The translations under genes and the position numbers were made by a program. The notes under the pieces are model-generated. The model did no database searches. It worked only from the letters and a program-made list of their open reading frames with translations, and was not told the DNA's origin. Shown in pieces: positions 25,034 through 48,362 of a stretch of 64,000 nucleotides of DNA. This stretch comes from a bacterium. GTDB lineage: Bacteria; Bacillota; Sulfobacillia; UBA995. The stretch covers positions 1 through 64,000 of the forward strand of contig JAVHLP010000001.1 of the NCBI GenBank assembly GCA_031082145.1, read 5' to 3'. The stretch's first letter is position 1; every line of letters begins with the position of its first letter.

Positions 25034-25082
25034 TGGCGGCGTCGGGTTAACGATAAATAGGGTTATGTAAACGCCTGAGCCG

Positions 25083-29430: not shown

Positions 29431-30960
29431 TCACATCTCCTGGCGGAAGAGAGCCCGGTATCGCTCCAGCACCTTGCGAGGGGTAACCGACGCCCGCTCG
29501 TACCGCGGGAGCTCGGGCTCAATGCCGGCCAGGTACTTGGCGATGCCCTTGAGGGCCTCCACGTCGTAGCGGTGCATCATGGTGATGGTCTCCATCTGGG
29601 GCGACCCCCCGCCGTGCAAGCCGGCCACCTGCATGACTCCGGCCAAGTCTGAGACGAGCGTGGTCTCGATCAGGCGGAAACAGCGATGCACATGCTCGGC
29701 CGGGATCGCCGGGTTGCGCATGATGTACTTGTGCAGGAGTTCTCCCGTCTCGGGGGCATAGAAGTCGCCTTCCAGCGGCAGGGTGGCGGCCAGTCCCCCC
29801 GCCAGGTCGGCCAGGATCCGGAACTCGTTGTAGACTTCCTCGCCGGCCAGCTTCCGCCCGGCGTTGGTCAGGATCTCGTCGGGGATATAGACGCCCGCCG
29901 TCGAGCGCTCGGCCCGGTAGGCGCTGGCCTGTCCGGCTGCGTAGACCAGCTCGGCCACGGTGATCAAGTGGGCCAGCTTCTCGCGCACATGGCCGGCCTG
30001 TTCAATGCCATTGTACTCGGCCACCAAGGCGGACTGGCTGGCCAGGATCTCGGTGGCGGCCGGCTTGCAGCCGGTATAGGAGTGCCGGTGGTAGTGGGCA
30101 AAGAGGAGGGCCAGGAAGCCCGCGTAAGGGATCACCCGCGGATCCGCCCGGCCGTCCATGAACACCCGGTCCCGGGGCACCAGGACGTCGTCGAAGATGG
30201 TGAAGGACTCGGCGTCACCCATCGCCGCGGCCGGGGCCTCGAGTCGGAGCCGCCGGAAGGGGGCCGCCGTCCGCACCACGAGCTTGACCCCTTCCCAGTC
30301 GGCCGGCAGGGCGAAGGCCACGGCGTAGTCGCCGTCCCGCTCGGTCATGAACCGGGTCGGTAGCACGATAATCTCGTCGGCATAGGGCGCGATGGTATTG
30401 TGCAGCTTCGCTCCCCGCACCACGATGCCGTCATCCCTTGATTCAACTATCCTCAAGTACAGGTCGGGATCGGATTGCTCGTGGGGGCGTCGCAGCCTAT
30501 CACCCTTGGCGTCGGTCTGGGCGCAGTTGGCGCAGAGGTCGTTGGCCTGGAAGTATCTCAGGTAGTCCTCGAATCGAGCATGATAACCGGTTCCCAGGGC
30601 CTCGTCCATCTCTGCCGTGACCACGGCCAGTGCATTGAGGGCGTCGGTGCCCATGCAACGTTGAATGCAGCCTCCGACCCGGTGACAGAGCAGGCGAGTC
30701 ATCCGCTGCTTCCGGAGTAGATCGTCCACGCTGCGATGGAGGTGGCAGAAGCGGTTGATCGGCTCTTCGGTCAGGTGGGAGATGGCGGTGCACACGTCGG
30801 CGTAGGCCGGATCGTCGGCCCGGGCGTACGTCTCGCCAATGACGTTGATCCCGGGCGCCAGGCGGTCATCATCCCGGCCCAGCGTCTGTCCGCCCATGTA
30901 GACGTTCGGGCGCATCCGGCGGAGTCGTTGCCGGTACCTCTCAAAGCTCCCTCCGCCCAT
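29431..30960 (-). CDS. 4-hydroxybutyryl-CoA dehydratase-like flavo-iron-sulfur protein
   Basis: A 509-residue member of the HpaB/AbfD family. In the Clostridium enzyme, which dehydrates 4-hydroxybutyryl-CoA by a ketyl-radical route, the [4Fe-4S] ligands are two Cys four residues apart, then a His and a Cys seven apart. Here Cys98 and Cys102 (CIQRC) and His291 and Cys298 (HRHSYTGC) keep the same spacing. Plain HpaB-type monooxygenases lack this set. Also shared are NRFCHLH, DPDLYLRIVE, DGIVVRGAK and HGGGSPQ. ATG at 30960 has AGAGGAGG about 7 bases upstream. No succinate or 4-hydroxybutyrate genes are nearby, so the true substrate is open. Confidence 0.88.
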   Translation of the reverse strand: MGGGSFERYRQRLRRMRPNVYMGGQTLGRDDDRLAPGINVIGETYARADDPAYADVCTAISHLTEEPINRFCHLHRSVDDLLRKQRMTRLLCHRVGGCIQRCMGTDALNALAVVTAEMDEALGTGYHARFEDYLRYFQANDLCANCAQTDAKGDRLRRPHEQSDPDLYLRIVESRDDGIVVRGAKLHNTIAPYADEIIVLPTRFMTERDGDYAVAFALPADWEGVKLVVRTAAPFRRLRLEAPAAAMGDAESFTIFDDVLVPRDRVFMDGRADPRVIPYAGFLALLFAHYHRHSYTGCKPAATEILASQSALVAEYNGIEQAGHVREKLAHLITVAELVYAAGQASAYRAERSTAGVYIPDEILTNAGRKLAGEEVYNEFRILADLAGGLAATLPLEGDFYAPETGELLHKYIMRNPAIPAEHVHRCFRLIETTLVSDLAGVMQVAGLHGGGSPQMETITMMHRYDVEALKGIAKYLAGIEPELPRYERASVTPRKVLERYRALFRQEM

Positions 30961-39819: not shown

Positions 39820-41160
39820 GTGACCTCTGACAACTATGATAGCCGGGATCTGACCGCCCTGGTAAGGGAGCATGAGGTCAGCTCCATCCGGCTTCAGTTC
39901 ACCGACATCCTGGGTATCATCAAGAACGTGGCCATACCGGCCAGCCAGCTGCCCAAGGCTCTGGATGGCCAGATCATGTTCGACGGCTCTTCCATCGAGG
40001 GTTTCGTCCGCATTGAGGAGTCGGACATGTTCCTCCGCCCCGACCCGGCGAGTTTCGCCCTCCTGCCCTGGCGGTCGCCGGAAGGGGGGGCCAGCGCCCG
40101 GCTGATCTGCGACGTCTACACCCCGGAAGGGGAACCCTTCGAGGGCTGCCCCCGGTGTGCCCTGAAGCGGGTGACGGCCCGCGCCGCCCGAATGGGCTTT
40201 GAGATGATGGCCGGCATGGAGGCCGAGTTCTTCCTGTTCCTCCGTGATGAACAAGGACGGGCCACCACCCGCACCCACGACCAGGGGAGCTACTACGATC
40301 TGGCCCCGGTGGATCGCGGTGAGCAGGCCCGCCAGCAGATGGTGGAGGCCCTCACCCGGATGGGCTTCGAGATCGAGACCTCCCACCACGAGTCCGCCCC
40401 CGGCCAGCACGAGATCGACTTCCGGTACGCCGAGGCGGTCACCACGGCCGACAACATAGCCACCTTCCGTTATGTCGTGCGGGTGATGGCCCGGGATCAC
40501 GGGCTGCACGCAACCTTCATGCCCAAGCCGGTCTACGGCGTCAACGGTTCGGGGATGCATACGCACCAGTCCCTGTTCCGCAACGGGCAGAATGCCTTCG
40601 CCGATCCGTCCGGCCGCTGGGGGCTGTCCGCCACCGCCCTGAACTACCTGGCTGGCCTCATCGGCCACGCCCGGGAGTTCACCGCCATCACCAACCCCCT
40701 GGTGAACTCCTACAAGCGCCTGATCCCCGGCTATGAGGCCCCGGTCTACATAGCCTGGTCGGAGCGCAACCGGAGCCCGTTTATCCGCGTCCCCTCCAAG
40801 CGGGGAGGCAGCAGTCGCCTGGAGATTCGCAGCCCCGACCCTTCCTGTAACCCCTACCTGGCCCTGGCGGTGATGCTGCAGGCGGGCCTCGACGGCGTCG
40901 AGAGACGGATGCCCGCCCCGGAGCCGGTCAACCGGAACCTCTACCGCCTCAGCGAACGGGAGCGGGTGGAACTGGGGGTGGAGAGCCTTCCCGGCAGCCT
41001 GCGGGAAGCCCTCCAGGAGATGAGCCAGAGCGAGCTCGTCCACAACGCCCTGGGCGATCACATCTTCCAGCGTTTCCTGGAGGCCAAGCAGATCGAGTAC
41101 TCCATCTACCGGTCGCAGGTTCACCAGTGGGAAGTGGAGCAGTACCTCTCGGTCTTCTGA
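39820..41160 (+). CDS. glnA: Glutamine synthetase type I
   Basis: GlnA, 446 residues, makes glutamine from glutamate and ammonia. Signatures: QFTDILGIIKNVAIP, MFDGSSIEGF, metal ligands in MEAEFFLF and HHESAPGQHEIDFRYAEA, the ammonium-site VNGSGMHTHQSLF, and NSYKRLIPGYEAPVYIAWSERNRS. It is the short GSI-alpha type found in Bacillota, controlled by GlnR rather than adenylylation. GTG at 39820 has no close ribosome site (GGGGAG 13 bases off), so it may depend on coupling to glnR, which ends 37 bases before. Confidence 0.97.
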   Translation: MTSDNYDSRDLTALVREHEVSSIRLQFTDILGIIKNVAIPASQLPKALDGQIMFDGSSIEGFVRIEESDMFLRPDPASFALLPWRSPEGGASARLICDVYTPEGEPFEGCPRCALKRVTARAARMGFEMMAGMEAEFFLFLRDEQGRATTRTHDQGSYYDLAPVDRGEQARQQMVEALTRMGFEIETSHHESAPGQHEIDFRYAEAVTTADNIATFRYVVRVMARDHGLHATFMPKPVYGVNGSGMHTHQSLFRNGQNAFADPSGRWGLSATALNYLAGLIGHAREFTAITNPLVNSYKRLIPGYEAPVYIAWSERNRSPFIRVPSKRGGSSRLEIRSPDPSCNPYLALAVMLQAGLDGVERRMPAPEPVNRNLYRLSERERVELGVESLPGSLREALQEMSQSELVHNALGDHIFQRFLEAKQIEYSIYRSQVHQWEVEQYLSVF

Positions 41161-41166
41161 GCCGCG

Positions 41167-41192
41167 GCCGGGAAGACCCCCATCTTCCCGGC
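41167..41192. terminator. Shared hairpin between glnA and lexA
   Basis: GCCGGGAAGA (41167-41176) pairs perfectly with TCTTCCCGGC (41183-41192) around CCCCCA. It lies 6 bases after the glnA stop and touches the lexA stop. No U-run on either strand. Confidence 0.6.
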
Positions 41193-41788
41193 TACAGTCT
41201 CCGGATCAGGCCTATCACCTTGCCCAGGATGGCGACGTCGGACACCAGTAGCGGGCGGTGAGCCGGGTTCTCCGGCTGCAGGCGGAAGTGGTCCCGCTCC
41301 CGGTAGAACCGTTTCACCGTCGCCTCGTCCTCCAGCAGGGCGACCACTATGTCGCCGTTCTCGGCCGTGCTCTGCCGCCGGACCAGCACGTGATCGCCGT
41401 CGGCGATGCCCGCGCCCTCCATGCTGTCGCCCCTGACCCGGAGCATGAAGACGTCCTCCGCCCGCACCAGGTCGAAAGGAAGGGAATAGGTCTCCTCCAG
41501 GTTCTCCTCGGCCAGGATGGGCCGGCCGGCGGTGACCCGCCCGACCAGCGGCACGGCGACCATTCGCTGCCTCGGTTCCAGGACTTCCATGGCCCGGGGT
41601 TTGGCGGCTTCCCGCCGAACCAGCCCGCGCTCCTCGAGGCCGGTCAGGTAGCCATGCACCGTGGAGGGGGACCGGAGGCCCACCGCCCGGCATATCTCTC
41701 GCACCGAGGGAGGATAGCCTTTTTCCTGCAGTTCACGCTTGATGAAAGCCAGGATCTCACGCTGCTTGGGGGTCAGCTCCTGGTCCAG
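41192..41788 (-). CDS. lexA: SOS repressor LexA, probable CTG start
   Basis: LexA, about 198 residues. The N-terminal winged helix reads [44 protein letters not shown]. Self-cleavage would occur at Ala87-Gly88 (VTAGRP), with Ser122 (GDSMEGAGI) and Lys159 (EATVKRF) as the catalytic pair. CTG at 41788 is exactly 8 bases after GGAGG and places the N-terminus where LexA proteins begin; GTG at 41797 overlaps the ribosome site. A LexA box and extended -10 promoter lie just upstream, so it is autoregulated. It converges on glnA. Confidence 0.95.
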
Positions 41789-41812
41789 GCTGCCCACCTC
41801 CCTTTGGACCTG

Positions 41813-41852
41813 ATTATACCAGGGTCGGGCGGGATATGCAAACACTCGTTCG
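41813..41852 (-). promoter_or_regulatory. lexA promoter with LexA (SOS) box
   Basis: On the minus strand the extended -10 TGG-TATAAT (41821-41813) stands about 7 bases before the likely RNA start. CGAAC-GAGT-GTTTG (41852-41839) matches the Gram-positive LexA box CGAAC-N4-GTTCG with one mismatch and overlaps the -35 region. This is the expected autoregulatory site. Confidence 0.75.
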
Positions 41853-41856
41853 CTTT

Positions 41857-43017
41857 CTACCCCGGGGCCGGTAGCCGGTCCACCGGGCTGCGCGCGAGGA
41901 GGCCGGCCGCCGCCATGCTGAGGACAGCTCCCCAGGTGAAGGCCGCCGGGGGACCTAGCCGGTCCCACAAGAGGCCGGCGGCGACTCCTCCGGCCAGAGC
42001 GGCCAGTCCCGACAAGGTGTGAAACAACCCCATGGTCGTCCCCCGGCTGGCCGCGGGACTGAGGTCACCGAGGTAGGCCCGGAAGTTACCCTCCACCATG
42101 CCGTGGGCCAGGCCTAACAGGCCCAAGGACAGGGCCAGCGTTAAGACCGACGACGACAGGCCCATTCCAACGCAACTGATCGCGAAGGTCGCCAGACCGG
42201 CGACCAGTACCGGGCGGCGCCCCTTGCGATCAGACCAGTGGCCGGCGGGCATGGAAGTCAGCGTGTAGACCACGTTGAAACCGAGATAGAGGAGCAGGGG
42301 GCCCACCGCCGCCATCTGCCCGATGAAATGGCCCGAGGCCCTCAACAGGTAGAACATGTAGCTGACGCGTCCCAGAGCAAAGACCGCGGAGACCAGTAGC
42401 AGCCGCCGCGCCGGCCCCGGCAGGGAAGAAACCTGCCAGGCAAGGCTGCGCCTGACGGGAGCCCGCCGCTCCTCCTGCACCAGGAACAGCAGCGGCAGGG
42501 CGGCGAAGGCGAGGGCGGCGCCGACCATGAGCGCCGTGCGGATGGGCAGCCCCAAGCCCCAGATCAGGAGCAGTCCGGCGCAGGTTCCGGCGATGGCGCC
42601 GGCCGTGTCCATCGCCCGGTGAAAGCCGAAGGCCCGGCCCCTGAGCTCGGGCCCCGCCAGGTCGGTTATGATCGCGTCCCGCGGGGCCGAGCGCAAGCCC
42701 TTGCCGATCCGTTCCAAGGGTCGGAAGAGCAGGAACTGCTGCCACGAGACGGCGAGAGGGAACAGCAACTTTGCGAAGGAGGACAGAGTGTAACCGGCTA
42801 TGACCAGGGGTTTCTTCCTTCCCAGCCGATCGGCGGTGTACCCGGCGAAGACCTTCAAGAGATCGCCGGCAGCATCGCCCAAGCCACCCACCAGGCCCAC
42901 GGCCGTTCCGGCAGCGCCCAATGCAGCCAGGTGCAGGGGAAGCAGGGGAAGGATGATCTCGCTGGAGAGGTCGGTGAGGAAACTCACCACGGCCAACAGG
43001 ATGATCCCGGAATGCAT
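41857..43017 (-). CDS. MFS transporter
   Basis: A 386-residue permease with 12 predicted membrane helices. The loop signature [14 protein letters not shown] after helix 2 and [13 protein letters not shown] after helix 8 mark the two halves; the N-terminus ([21 protein letters not shown]) is of the type seen in exporters with [14 protein letters not shown]. Substrate unknown. It lies between lexA and the YneA-like gene; its start region faces the two SOS boxes at 43094-43135, so damage control is possible but not shown. ATG at 43017 follows GGAAGGAG by about 10 bases. Confidence 0.9.
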
Positions 43018-43086
43018 CGGCGTTCGCTCCTTCCGCTAGTACATTCGACGACGGTTCGTCGCCACCAGAAGGTTGTCCTTCCCCCC

Positions 43087-43135
43087 TTGACGGGGAACAC
43101 ATGTTCGCTTACAATGAGAGGCGAACACAGGTTCG
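43087..43135 (+). promoter_or_regulatory. SOS promoter with two LexA boxes for the YneA-like gene
   Basis: TTGACG (43087-43092), 17 bases, TACAAT (43110-43115). Box 1, GGAAC-ACAT-GTTCG (43094-43107), fills the spacer. Box 2, CGAAC-ACAG-GTTCG (43122-43135), is a perfect match to the Gram-positive consensus and covers the expected RNA start. This is one of the clearest control regions in the window. Confidence 0.85.
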
Positions 43136-43149
43136 GCGGAGGGGTTACG

Positions 43150-43461
43150 ATGGTGACCCATCGACGCTGGAGGCTAGTCCGGGCGGGACGCCTGGCGGCC
43201 GCGCTGCTGGTGCTCCTGGCGGCCCTGCTAGCCCTGGTGGGAGGGCTCAGCGGGGCCCTCCGGGCGGAGGGTGCCGGCCGCGAGGAAGCTCTACCGGCCT
43301 ACCATGTCGTGCAGCCCGGGGACACTCTCTGGCAGATATCGGTCAGGCTCGGAGGACCGTCCACCGACCCCCGCCGTCTGGCCTGGACCATCCAGAAGCA
43401 CAACGGCCTGGCCAGTCCGGTCATCTTCCCGGGGCAGATCCTGGAACTACCTCCGTTCTGA
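43150..43461 (+). CDS. yneA: YneA-like LysM protein, SOS-induced division inhibitor candidate
   Basis: A 103-residue protein: basic start, one membrane helix (about 13-35), then a LysM domain (YHVVQPGDTLWQISVRLGG ... LAWTIQKHNGLASPVIFPGQILELP). Size, layout, location beside lexA and the double LexA box match YneA, which halts division during the Bacillus SOS response. ATG at 43150 has GGAGG 7 bases upstream. The LysM part could bind peptidoglycan at the septum. Sequence identity with YneA cannot be measured here, so the symbol is by analogy. Confidence 0.85.
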   Translation: MVTHRRWRLVRAGRLAAALLVLLAALLALVGGLSGALRAEGAGREEALPAYHVVQPGDTLWQISVRLGGPSTDPRRLAWTIQKHNGLASPVIFPGQILELPPF

Positions 43462-43782: not shown

Positions 43783-44850
43783 CTAGCGTCGCCGCCGCCG
43801 GTGGCGGGCGAAGCGGTTCAGCCGGGCCGCCTGCTCCTTCTGCCGGTCGCTGACGTGGGTGTAGATCTGGGTGGTGGCGATGCTCTCATGCCCCAGCAGG
43901 GCCTGCAGGGTGCGCAGGTCGCCCCCCTCCTGGAAGATCTCGGTGGCGTAGGAGTGCCGCAGTTTGTGCGGAGTCACCCGGGAGCCGTCGGTGCTGGTGA
44001 GTTCCAGACCCTGGACCCACAGCTTCACCCGCTGCTGCACCGCCCGGGCCGTGATGCGGGTCCGCTGGGAGGACAGGAACAGGGCCAGCCGGTCTTCCGG
44101 GCGGGCGGCCGCCGGGCGGACCGCCTTGTAGGCCATGACCGCCTCAATGATGGCAGGGGAGAGAGGGACGTCCCGCTCCTTGCGTCCCTTGCCCTTCACC
44201 CGGAGGTAGTCCTTGCCGGGGAGGATATCGGGGAGATCCAGGCCCACGACCTCCGACACGCGGAGCCCCGTCGCCAGCATCAAGAGGCACATGGCATAGT
44301 CCCGTTCCCCGAACTCCCCCCGAATGCCTCCCAGCAGCCGGTTGCCGTCCTCATAACTCAGGTACACCGGGAGCGTCCGTCCCTGCCGGGCGCTCTCCAG
44401 CACCTCGGCCGGATTCTCGGCGAGATAGCCTCGGCGATGCAGGAATCGGAAGAGGGACCGCACGGCGCTGAACTTGCGGTTGCGGGTGGCGGGCCGGTTG
44501 CGGCGGACCTGGGCGAGATAGCTGCCGAAGCCGTGCAGGTGCTCGCGCCGCACCCGGGCGAGGTCCAGGAAGGCCTCGAACACCTCTTCCCTGGTCATCC
44601 CCGCTTCGTCCACCCGGGCGAACTCCTGGCGGAAACGCGTCGCCGTCGGCGCCGGTCCGGAGGCTGGGCTGGGCGGGGCGCTTCGTTCGTCGCGCCGTGG
44701 CGTCCCGGAGTGGATCTCGGGGCAGTAGAGCAGCAGGTACCGCTTGAACTGAAAGAGATCGATGGCATAAGCCTCCTGGCTCCGGGGGGAGGCCTCGCGG
44801 GCGGCCCGGTGGTCCAGGAACAAGGTGGCGGCCCGGTTGAAGTCGAGCAA
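43783..44850 (-). CDS. Xer-type tyrosine recombinase
   Basis: About 355 residues. The C-terminal catalytic domain has all six residues: Arg in ATGLRVSEVVGLD, Lys in RVKGKGRKERDVPL, His-x-x-Arg in PHKLRHSYATEIF, and His/Tyr in LLGHESIATTQIYTHV. The N-terminal SAM-like domain is split by about 50 extra Pro/Ala/Arg-rich residues (from IHSGTPRRDER), making it longer than XerC/XerD (about 300). TTG at 44850 has GGAGG exactly 8 bases upstream; ATG at 44856 is only 2 away. A dif-like site lies 64-91 bases upstream. Probably resolves chromosome dimers, though an element integrase cannot be excluded. Confidence 0.9.
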   Translation of the reverse strand: MLDFNRAATLFLDHRAAREASPRSQEAYAIDLFQFKRYLLLYCPEIHSGTPRRDERSAPPSPASGPAPTATRFRQEFARVDEAGMTREEVFEAFLDLARVRREHLHGFGSYLAQVRRNRPATRNRKFSAVRSLFRFLHRRGYLAENPAEVLESARQGRTLPVYLSYEDGNRLLGGIRGEFGERDYAMCLLMLATGLRVSEVVGLDLPDILPGKDYLRVKGKGRKERDVPLSPAIIEAVMAYKAVRPAAARPEDRLALFLSSQRTRITARAVQQRVKLWVQGLELTSTDGSRVTPHKLRHSYATEIFQEGGDLRTLQALLGHESIATTQIYTHVSDRQKEQAARLNRFARHRRRRR

Positions 44851-44889
44851 CGTCATAGCCTCCTTCGCGAGCGCTATTCGCGCCGCCGC

Positions 44890-44907: not shown

Positions 44908-44947
44908 CCTGGCATTTCGCATAATCGCTATTTAGCGAAGTGCCAGG
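44908..44947. other. dif-like Xer recombination site
   Basis: CCTGGCATTTCGC (44908-44920) and GCGAAGTGCCAGG (44935-44947) are inverted repeats with one G-T wobble. Inside, the minus strand of 44914-44941 has dif layout: ACTTCGCTAAA, a 6-base centre TAGCGA, then TTATGCGAAAT. The second arm matches the E. coli XerD arm TTATGTTAAAT at 9 of 11 positions and the B. subtilis arm TTATGTAAACT at 8; the first arm matches the B. subtilis arm ACTTCCTAGAA at 7 (reference sites from memory). It lies just upstream of a Xer recombinase and at a gene-orientation switch. A plain operator hairpin is the alternative. Confidence 0.6.
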
Positions 44948-45080: not shown

Positions 45081-45563
45081 TCACGGCCGACCGCGCTTGG
45101 CGGCCAAGCGCAGGGCCAGGGCCACCGCTTCGGTCGCGCCTTGGGCGCGGTGCAAGGGCACCTGCTCCCCGACCGGCGACACTGCTTCCCAGGTGCCAAC
45201 GCCAACCACCGGCAGTCCTTCTTTCAGGGCCATGGCGATCTCCGACAGGGTCCCGAACCCTCCTGCGACGGCAATGACGACGTCTGCCGCCTTGATGACC
45301 AGGGCGTTGCGGGCGATCCCCAGGCCAGTCGGCAGGGCGACGGTGAGATAGGAGTTGGCATCGGAGCGATCATCCCCCGGCAGCAGGCCCACGGTGACCC
45401 CTCCCCTGCCCCGGGCGCCGCGGCACGCGGCTTCCATCACGCCACCACGGCCTCCGGTGATGAGCACCGCCCCGGCGTCCGCCAGCGCGGCTCCGACCTG
45501 CTCGGCCAGTGCTGCCGTAGCCAGCCCGCAGGAGGCCGCTCCCACCACCGCCACGTTGATCAT
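45081..45563 (-). CDS. TIGR00725/LOG-like Rossmann protein
   Basis: A 160-residue nucleotide-binding-type protein of the group annotated TIGR00725, related to LOG and Moco-carrier proteins. Visible: VAVVGAASCG, VLITGGRGGVMEAACRGA and the phosphate-loop signature AGGFGTLSEIAMAL. LOG enzymes release cytokinin-like bases from nucleotides, but the short form here often binds cofactors. ATG overlaps the stop of the beta-lactamase-fold gene (ATGA), so it is the last gene of an operon with a MoaD-like carrier, which favours a link to sulfur or molybdopterin chemistry. Confidence 0.88.
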   Translation of the reverse strand: MINVAVVGAASCGLATAALAEQVGAALADAGAVLITGGRGGVMEAACRGARGRGGVTVGLLPGDDRSDANSYLTVALPTGLGIARNALVIKAADVVIAVAGGFGTLSEIAMALKEGLPVVGVGTWEAVSPVGEQVPLHRAQGATEAVALALRLAAKRGRP

Positions 45564-48258: not shown

Positions 48259-48362
48259 CTCTTGTCCACCTCCTCGTGACTTGACCTGCAGCTAGCTTTC
48301 CCCGCAGCCAGTTGGTTATGTCAAGCAAGATAAGGTTCGCACGGGCCGGGCCAAGCAGTGAA

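Follow-up and report, generated by a model that had tools for sequence, protein, structure and literature searches.

The 28-bp sequence at positions 44,914 to 44,941 of the window (the whole stretch of 64,000 nucleotides that was analysed) is very probably the dif site of the tyrosine recombinase encoded next to it. The most likely reading is that gene and site form a compact module of chromosome dimer resolution at the replication terminus, in which one Xer protein would occupy both arms. This reading draws on the observed conservation and uniqueness of the site, its position at the terminus, the clade of its recombinase and the palindromes found in that clade. A compact recombinase-plus-site module had been proposed in an earlier note on this DNA, and the proposal is supported by the recurrence of the gene-plus-site unit in distant Bacillota. 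The parts of the module are given below.

44914..44941, no strand assigned: predicted dif-type recombination site, unique in the genome, its arms kept in genomes G001 and G003 with other hexamers
44914..44924, 44925..44930 and 44931..44941, plus strand: arm ATTTCGCATAA, hexamer TCGCTA and arm TTTAGCGAAGT of the site
44908..44947, no strand assigned: longer imperfect inverted repeat enclosing the site (CCTGGCAyTTCGC...), its outer extension found in this genome (G000) only
43783..44850, minus strand: Xer-type tyrosine recombinase of about 355 aa, third Xer clade, TTG start at 44850 (ATG at 44856 possible)

Read on the minus strand from 44941 to 44914, the site is ACTTCGCTAAA-TAGCGA-TTATGCGAAAT. 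The earlier note had described this 11-6-11 layout within a longer inverted repeat, and the sequence is exactly as it was written there. The 28-mer has a G+C content of 36% versus 68% in the window, and it is the sole AT-rich 11-6-11 sequence with at least 8/11 symmetry in the 64 kb. A degenerate dif pattern gave a single match, the 28-mer itself, against a chance expectation of 0.02. It occurs once in the 2.34-Mb genome with up to three mismatches allowed, and the check for uniqueness found one copy each in G000, G001 and G003. The site thus shares general properties of dif, namely a length of 28 bp, the 11-6-11 layout, a partly palindromic and AT-rich sequence, an intergenic location and one copy per chromosome.

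Close orthologues of the recombinase were found only in two other genomes of its family, f1, with 69% identity in G001 and 66% in G003, and the search for related loci gave UBA8125 as its only useful match, on the same contig as that of G003. The site was expected upstream of the orthologous genes, and both have it. In G003 it reads ACTTCGCTAAA-TATATC-TTATGCGAAGT and lies about 80 bp ahead of the coding match; in G001 it reads ACTTCGCTAAA-TTACCA-TTATGCGAACT and lies about 490 bp upstream of the recombinase. The pattern ACTTCGCTAAA-N6-TTATGCGAA[C/G]T is found once in each with 0 or 1 mismatch, on the recombinase's own contig. One arm is invariant among the f1 sites and the other varies at one position, whereas the central hexamer and the flanks are variable and the longer inverted repeat of G000 is kept in neither G001 nor G003. 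Nearly invariant arms around a variable centre and within variable flanks are what one would expect a recombination site to show. Nothing can be learned from G002, the fourth f1 genome, whose contig breaks off 468 bp after lexA; a true loss of gene and site was rejected in favour of this assembly break. Some matches elsewhere were taken as chance, which include a 2-mismatch match on contig G035:C322, far from any recombinase in a genome with a perfect canonical dif elsewhere, and two exact arm matches in viral contigs, which fall within phage structural-type genes or on their margin.

The TTG at 44850, which has GGAGG 8 nt upstream, is likely the start codon of the recombinase, and the orthologues start with MLDF or MLEF. 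The distance between site and gene is therefore 64 bases, in agreement with the earlier reading. The predicted catalytic residues are R197, K221, H295, R298, H321 and Y330; the N-terminal domain has an insertion of about 50 aa, and the C-terminus lacks the HPR motif that XerC and XerD have. All NCBIfam equivalog scores are below their cut-offs (XerC, 212.3 vs 335.15; XerD, 194.1 vs 329.6; XerS, 130.5 vs 267). Judged by its sequence and these cut-offs, the linked recombinase is neither canonical XerC nor canonical XerD. Among PDB chains it scored 121 bits with XerD 1a0p and 53 bits with XerH 5jjv, the latter ranking below XerD, XerA and others. An AlphaFold model gave a two-domain Xer fold (mean pLDDT 83; pTM 0.57, with uncertain domain placement), and its best PDB matches, which were XerA, XerD, XerH and integrases, leave the family undecided. 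A canonical XerD is also encoded in this genome (379 bits, cut-off 329.6) and is retained in G001 and G003, while canonical XerC was not found in the f1 genomes. In f2, the sister family, both are present. FtsK gamma domains are encoded by 8/8 genomes of f1 and f2.

The position of the site was examined on contig C11 (587,826 bp). Its GC skew changes in a sustained way only once, and the cumulative skew peaks at 30,818. Polar octamers that had been selected more than 120 kb away show their switch at 41,075. The site, at 44,914, lies 14 kb from the sole GC-skew switch and 4 kb from the octamer switch, as anticipated for a dif at the skew switch, on this one contig with only 45 kb of sequence to the left of the site. 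The cumulative-skew maximum near the site is the terminus side. Two neighbouring genes place the site in a wider context.

41192..41968, minus strand: lexA (TIGR00498, 232.7 bits, cut-off 110.95; synteny), which adjoins dif in several families of the class
45081..45563, minus strand: TIGR00725 family protein on the far side of dif, likewise found beyond the canonical dif in G035

Canonical dif sites of the class, for example ACTTCCGATAA-N6-TTATGTNAACT, usually occur once per genome. At the loci where it is visible, the canonical dif lies about 0.5-1.5 kb upstream of lexA (G004:C4, G005:C130, G017:C11, G030:C1, G035:C1, G049:C1 and G059:C45). The order glnA-lexA-dif-TIGR00725 in G035 is the same as here but without an adjacent recombinase gene; in f1 this gene separates lexA from the site. 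With up to three mismatches allowed, the canonical dif pattern had no further match in the f1 genomes. The location of dif upstream of lexA in relatives, together with the f1 order, implies that the f1 site occupies the place of dif. The dif-lexA neighbourhood is conserved across several families of the class, and no description of it was found. Near lexA there is also an ORF on the plus strand (42619-43461), ending in a LysM-like stretch, YHVVQPGDTLWQISVRLG, seen by eye. This is reminiscent of the lexA-yneA arrangement of B. subtilis.

The earlier note had counted 9/11 agreements of one arm with the E. coli XerD arm and 7/11 of the other with the B. subtilis XerC arm, and labelled the arms accordingly. 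These counts are correct against the reference sites used there, but the labels are doubtful, since the lexA-side dif of relatives points the opposite way. In canonical sites of the class the XerC arm is always nearer lexA; by this rule, the f1 site would be read ATTTCGCATAA-TCGCTA-TTTAGCGAAGT. The arm on the XerC side would then be A.TTCGCATAA, the reverse reading of the former 'XerD arm', and in G003 the arm so assigned is identical to the XerC arm of G010, G016 and G017. The class profile, on the other hand, gives a tie in G003 and mildly favours the earlier orientation in G000 and G001. As rule and profile do not settle the matter, the labels are doubtful rather than disproved. In either orientation the canonical XerD arm TTATGTNAACT is absent, its place being taken by TTATGCGAAAT or TTTAGCGAAGT. 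The outer seven bases of the two arms agree at 6-7/7 positions in f1 versus a mean of 2.35/7 in 40 canonical sites of the class. The f1 arms are not fully identical (8-9/11), which leaves room for XerD on one of them.

The recombinase has relatives well beyond the class. A search of 398 genomes across the phylum found 36 others with a better relative of it than almost all class members have. The 20 of these loci that were read, of which 8 adjoin lexA, are not 20 independent cases, as they come from few families (7 from f130 and 4 from f112). The clade proteins and the f1 proteins stand together apart from the XerC and XerD clades (support 100/98), in a tree whose long branches call for caution. 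Within the clade the f1 proteins join those of G530, G431, G168 and G472 (91/90). Base composition is unlikely to drive this grouping, because the GC-rich f1 proteins cluster with AT-rich ones. XerS, being outside the tree, may be a distant branch of the third clade.

Palindromes with 11-6-11 spacing are found in most of these loci. In the 400 bp upstream of the match, symmetry of at least 9/11 is present in 17/20 loci and perfect 11/11 symmetry in 15/20, whereas 1,086 random control windows from the same loci gave 8.9% and 0.46%, respectively. Upstream of 26 XerC or XerD genes of the class, symmetry was at most 7/11. Examples include ATTATACGAAA-N6-TTTCGTATAAT in f112, ATTGCACAAAA-N6-TTTTGTGCAAT in f130, ACTTCGCTAAA-TGTAAA-TTTAGCGAAGT in G499 and ACTTCGTAAAA-N6-TTTTACGAAGT in G453. 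Most clade sites lie within a few hundred bp of the gene, and here, at 64 bp, the gene is likewise adjacent to its own site, as in the working type 'single-recombinase linked Xer/dif module'. In complete genomes from three families the site is close to the cumulative GC-skew maximum (G270, 1.8 kb; G301, 5.4 kb; G453, 0.6 kb). Matches to canonical dif with up to two mismatches occur in 6/20 clade genomes, fewer than the 12/20 that match a reversed control pattern; in the whole set they occur in 14/37 genomes with such a relative versus 230/361 without.

Other Xer-like loci were seen during this survey. The lexA-side recombinase of G007, an f2 genome, joined the f1 protein only on long branches and was dropped as a clade member. 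This different Xer-like gene beside lexA has, just past its 3' end (L118:5780-5807 on G007:C5), a 9/11 palindrome seen by eye, ATGACGCAAAA-CAGGCA-TTTGGCGTCAC; canonical dif was not found in this 81% complete genome. In G517 (L181:4456-6005), two Xer-like genes lie side by side in opposite orientation, with a palindromic site upstream of one. In G472 (L185), an 8/11 site, ATTCCTGATAA-TGTTGA-TTTCCGGGAAT, lies 121 bp upstream of the matched region and may be the diverged dif of this clade member.

XerD-type half-sites are found in the window apart from the dif.

48316..48326, plus strand: lone XerD-type half-site TTATGTCAAGC, 3.4 kb from dif, with TTATGTAAACC in the same intergenic slot of G001 (L106:14006)
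25063..25073, plus strand: second XerD-type half-site TTATGTAAACG, 20 kb from dif

The slot shared by G000 and G001, about 3.3-3.4 kb from dif, has the consensus TTATGT[CA]AA[GA]C, and G003 has only a degenerate form of the 48316 half-site. The sequence TTATGTNAA occurs three times on the 588-kb contig, and two of these copies are no more than 20 kb from dif. XerD unloads SMC complexes at the B. subtilis terminus (Karaboja et al., 2021, as cited in PMC10945525), and the half-site at 48316-48326 is suggestive of a candidate XerD site for SMC unloading. The second half-site is part of a dif-like sequence at 25046-25073, GTTAACGATAA-ATAGGG-TTATGTAAACG, whose XerD half is good, indeed better than that of the site reported here, and whose left half is poor.

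The site could instead be the dif of a normal two-recombinase system, the linked protein being a fast-evolved replacement of XerC on one arm with canonical XerD on the other. The retention of XerD together with the missing canonical XerC in f1 would fit, as would the inner asymmetry kept in the arms, the identity of the left arm ACTTCGCATAA with the XerC arms of G010 and G017, and a class-only tree in which grouping with the XerC of f2 was not rejected (p-AU 0.31). However, the arm expected for XerD is without TTATGT, which is invariant in 40/40 listed sites (themselves found with that pattern), and yet XerD sits on its ordinary branch. The outer arm bases nearly agree here, unlike those of the two halves of a canonical dif; perfect palindromes in the same clade offer two enzymes no sequence distinction; and the TTATGTNAA half-sites stand apart from dif. 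We consider this explanation unlikely, though by no means negligible.

Quite improbable is a decayed mobile element, an integrase with its attachment site, inserted at an ancestral dif while true dimer resolution takes place elsewhere, for example at 25046-25073. Such an origin would suit the integrase-next-to-att layout and the insertion between lexA and dif, and the 25-kb site does have the XerD half TTATGTAAACG, but its left half is poor, and the module is a single copy conserved vertically in f1 with the same neighbours. No other mobile genes were noticed, and complete genomes from three families have the clade's site at the terminus. The least probable of the alternatives makes the palindrome a control element of the recombinase gene, either a regulatory operator or a transcription terminator, and no recombination site at all. 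It does lie just upstream of the gene, and some clade palindromes run well past 11 bp (e.g., G270). Against this, no terminator-like match was found in the region, the arms are kept with fixed 11-6-11 spacing while centre and flanks vary, and the distance to the gene reaches about 490 bp in G001 and about 870 bp from the match start in G530. Moreover, in four genomes site and replication terminus coincide, and the site resembles and replaces canonical dif.

The near-identical arms in f1 and the identical arms in much of the clade make one protein on both arms the simplest reading. On the sequence evidence, it is likely that one recombinase works alone at the site; as the genome keeps a canonical XerD, we infer a single-Xer system for the action at this site only. 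The linked recombinase would be the cognate Xer of this dif, the two together resolving chromosome dimers at the terminus. One type of recombinase would bind both near-identical arms, two bound sites would pair in antiparallel, and the catalytic tyrosines would presumably cut at the borders of the six-base centre. The direction and order of strand exchange may be set by the asymmetric centre plus the small arm differences, and in XerH bound to difH a small arm asymmetry orders the strand exchanges (PMC5241119). FtsK, in view of the encoded gamma domain, may bring the sites together at the septum. The retained canonical XerD probably has another role, such as SMC release at separate half-sites.

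Several known systems resemble this module in part. XerS/difSL of streptococci and lactococci (PMC5357621) likewise has one Xer of about 356 aa with its gene beside the site, a terminus location and imperfect mirror arms. However, difSL is 31 bp with an 11-bp centre versus 28 bp with a 6-bp centre here, the XerS score of the protein here is 130 bits with a cut-off of 267, and canonical XerD is kept. XerH/difH of Helicobacter and Campylobacter (PMC2731167; PMC5241119) shares the linked gene and site, the near-identical arms with small asymmetry and a long N-terminal domain (XerH, a protein of 354-362 aa, has its specific helices B and C), but the low similarity (53 bits to 5jjv) and an arm sequence unlike difH speak against a close relationship. 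XerL/dif of Legionellales (PMC9765430) has a single recombinase and uninterrupted inverted-repeat arms, whereas XerL and dif are more than 400 kb apart in L. pneumophila and adjacent here. With XerCD/dif of Bacillota the site shares the 28-bp length, the 11-6-11 layout, the locus upstream of lexA in the class and the terminus position; it differs in a recombinase below both the XerC and XerD cut-offs, in near-identical arms and in gene-site linkage. By analogy, the best reading is that the module works like XerS/difSL or XerH/difH; membership in either is not claimed.

Reviews name XerS/difSL and XerH/difH as linked single-recombinase systems, along with XerA in archaea and the unlinked XerL (PMC5357621; PMC2731167; PMC9765430). 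In the open literature, apart from the original XerS paper and the supplement of PMC3025954, no report of a linked or palindromic dif in these Bacillota was found. On balance, we lean towards an undescribed third Xer family across Bacillota, distinct from XerC, XerD, XerS and XerH. Dimer resolution would have passed to it, at a linked 28-bp dif of its own that lies beside lexA and is often a perfect palindrome, with XerD kept for another job at the terminus such as SMC unloading at lone half-sites.

Linked single-enzyme Xer/dif modules have so far been reported only from streptococci and lactococci and from one group of epsilon-proteobacteria. A separate Bacillota-wide clade, with some complete genomes that have a sharp skew switch, would, if true, mean that the two-enzyme route to dimer resolution was replaced more frequently than has been assumed. 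As XerD seems to be uncoupled from dif here, these bacteria would offer a natural case in which its SMC-unloading role is testable by itself. The gene-site linkage eases the finding of sites, and the perfect palindromes would be clean substrates for studies of strand order.
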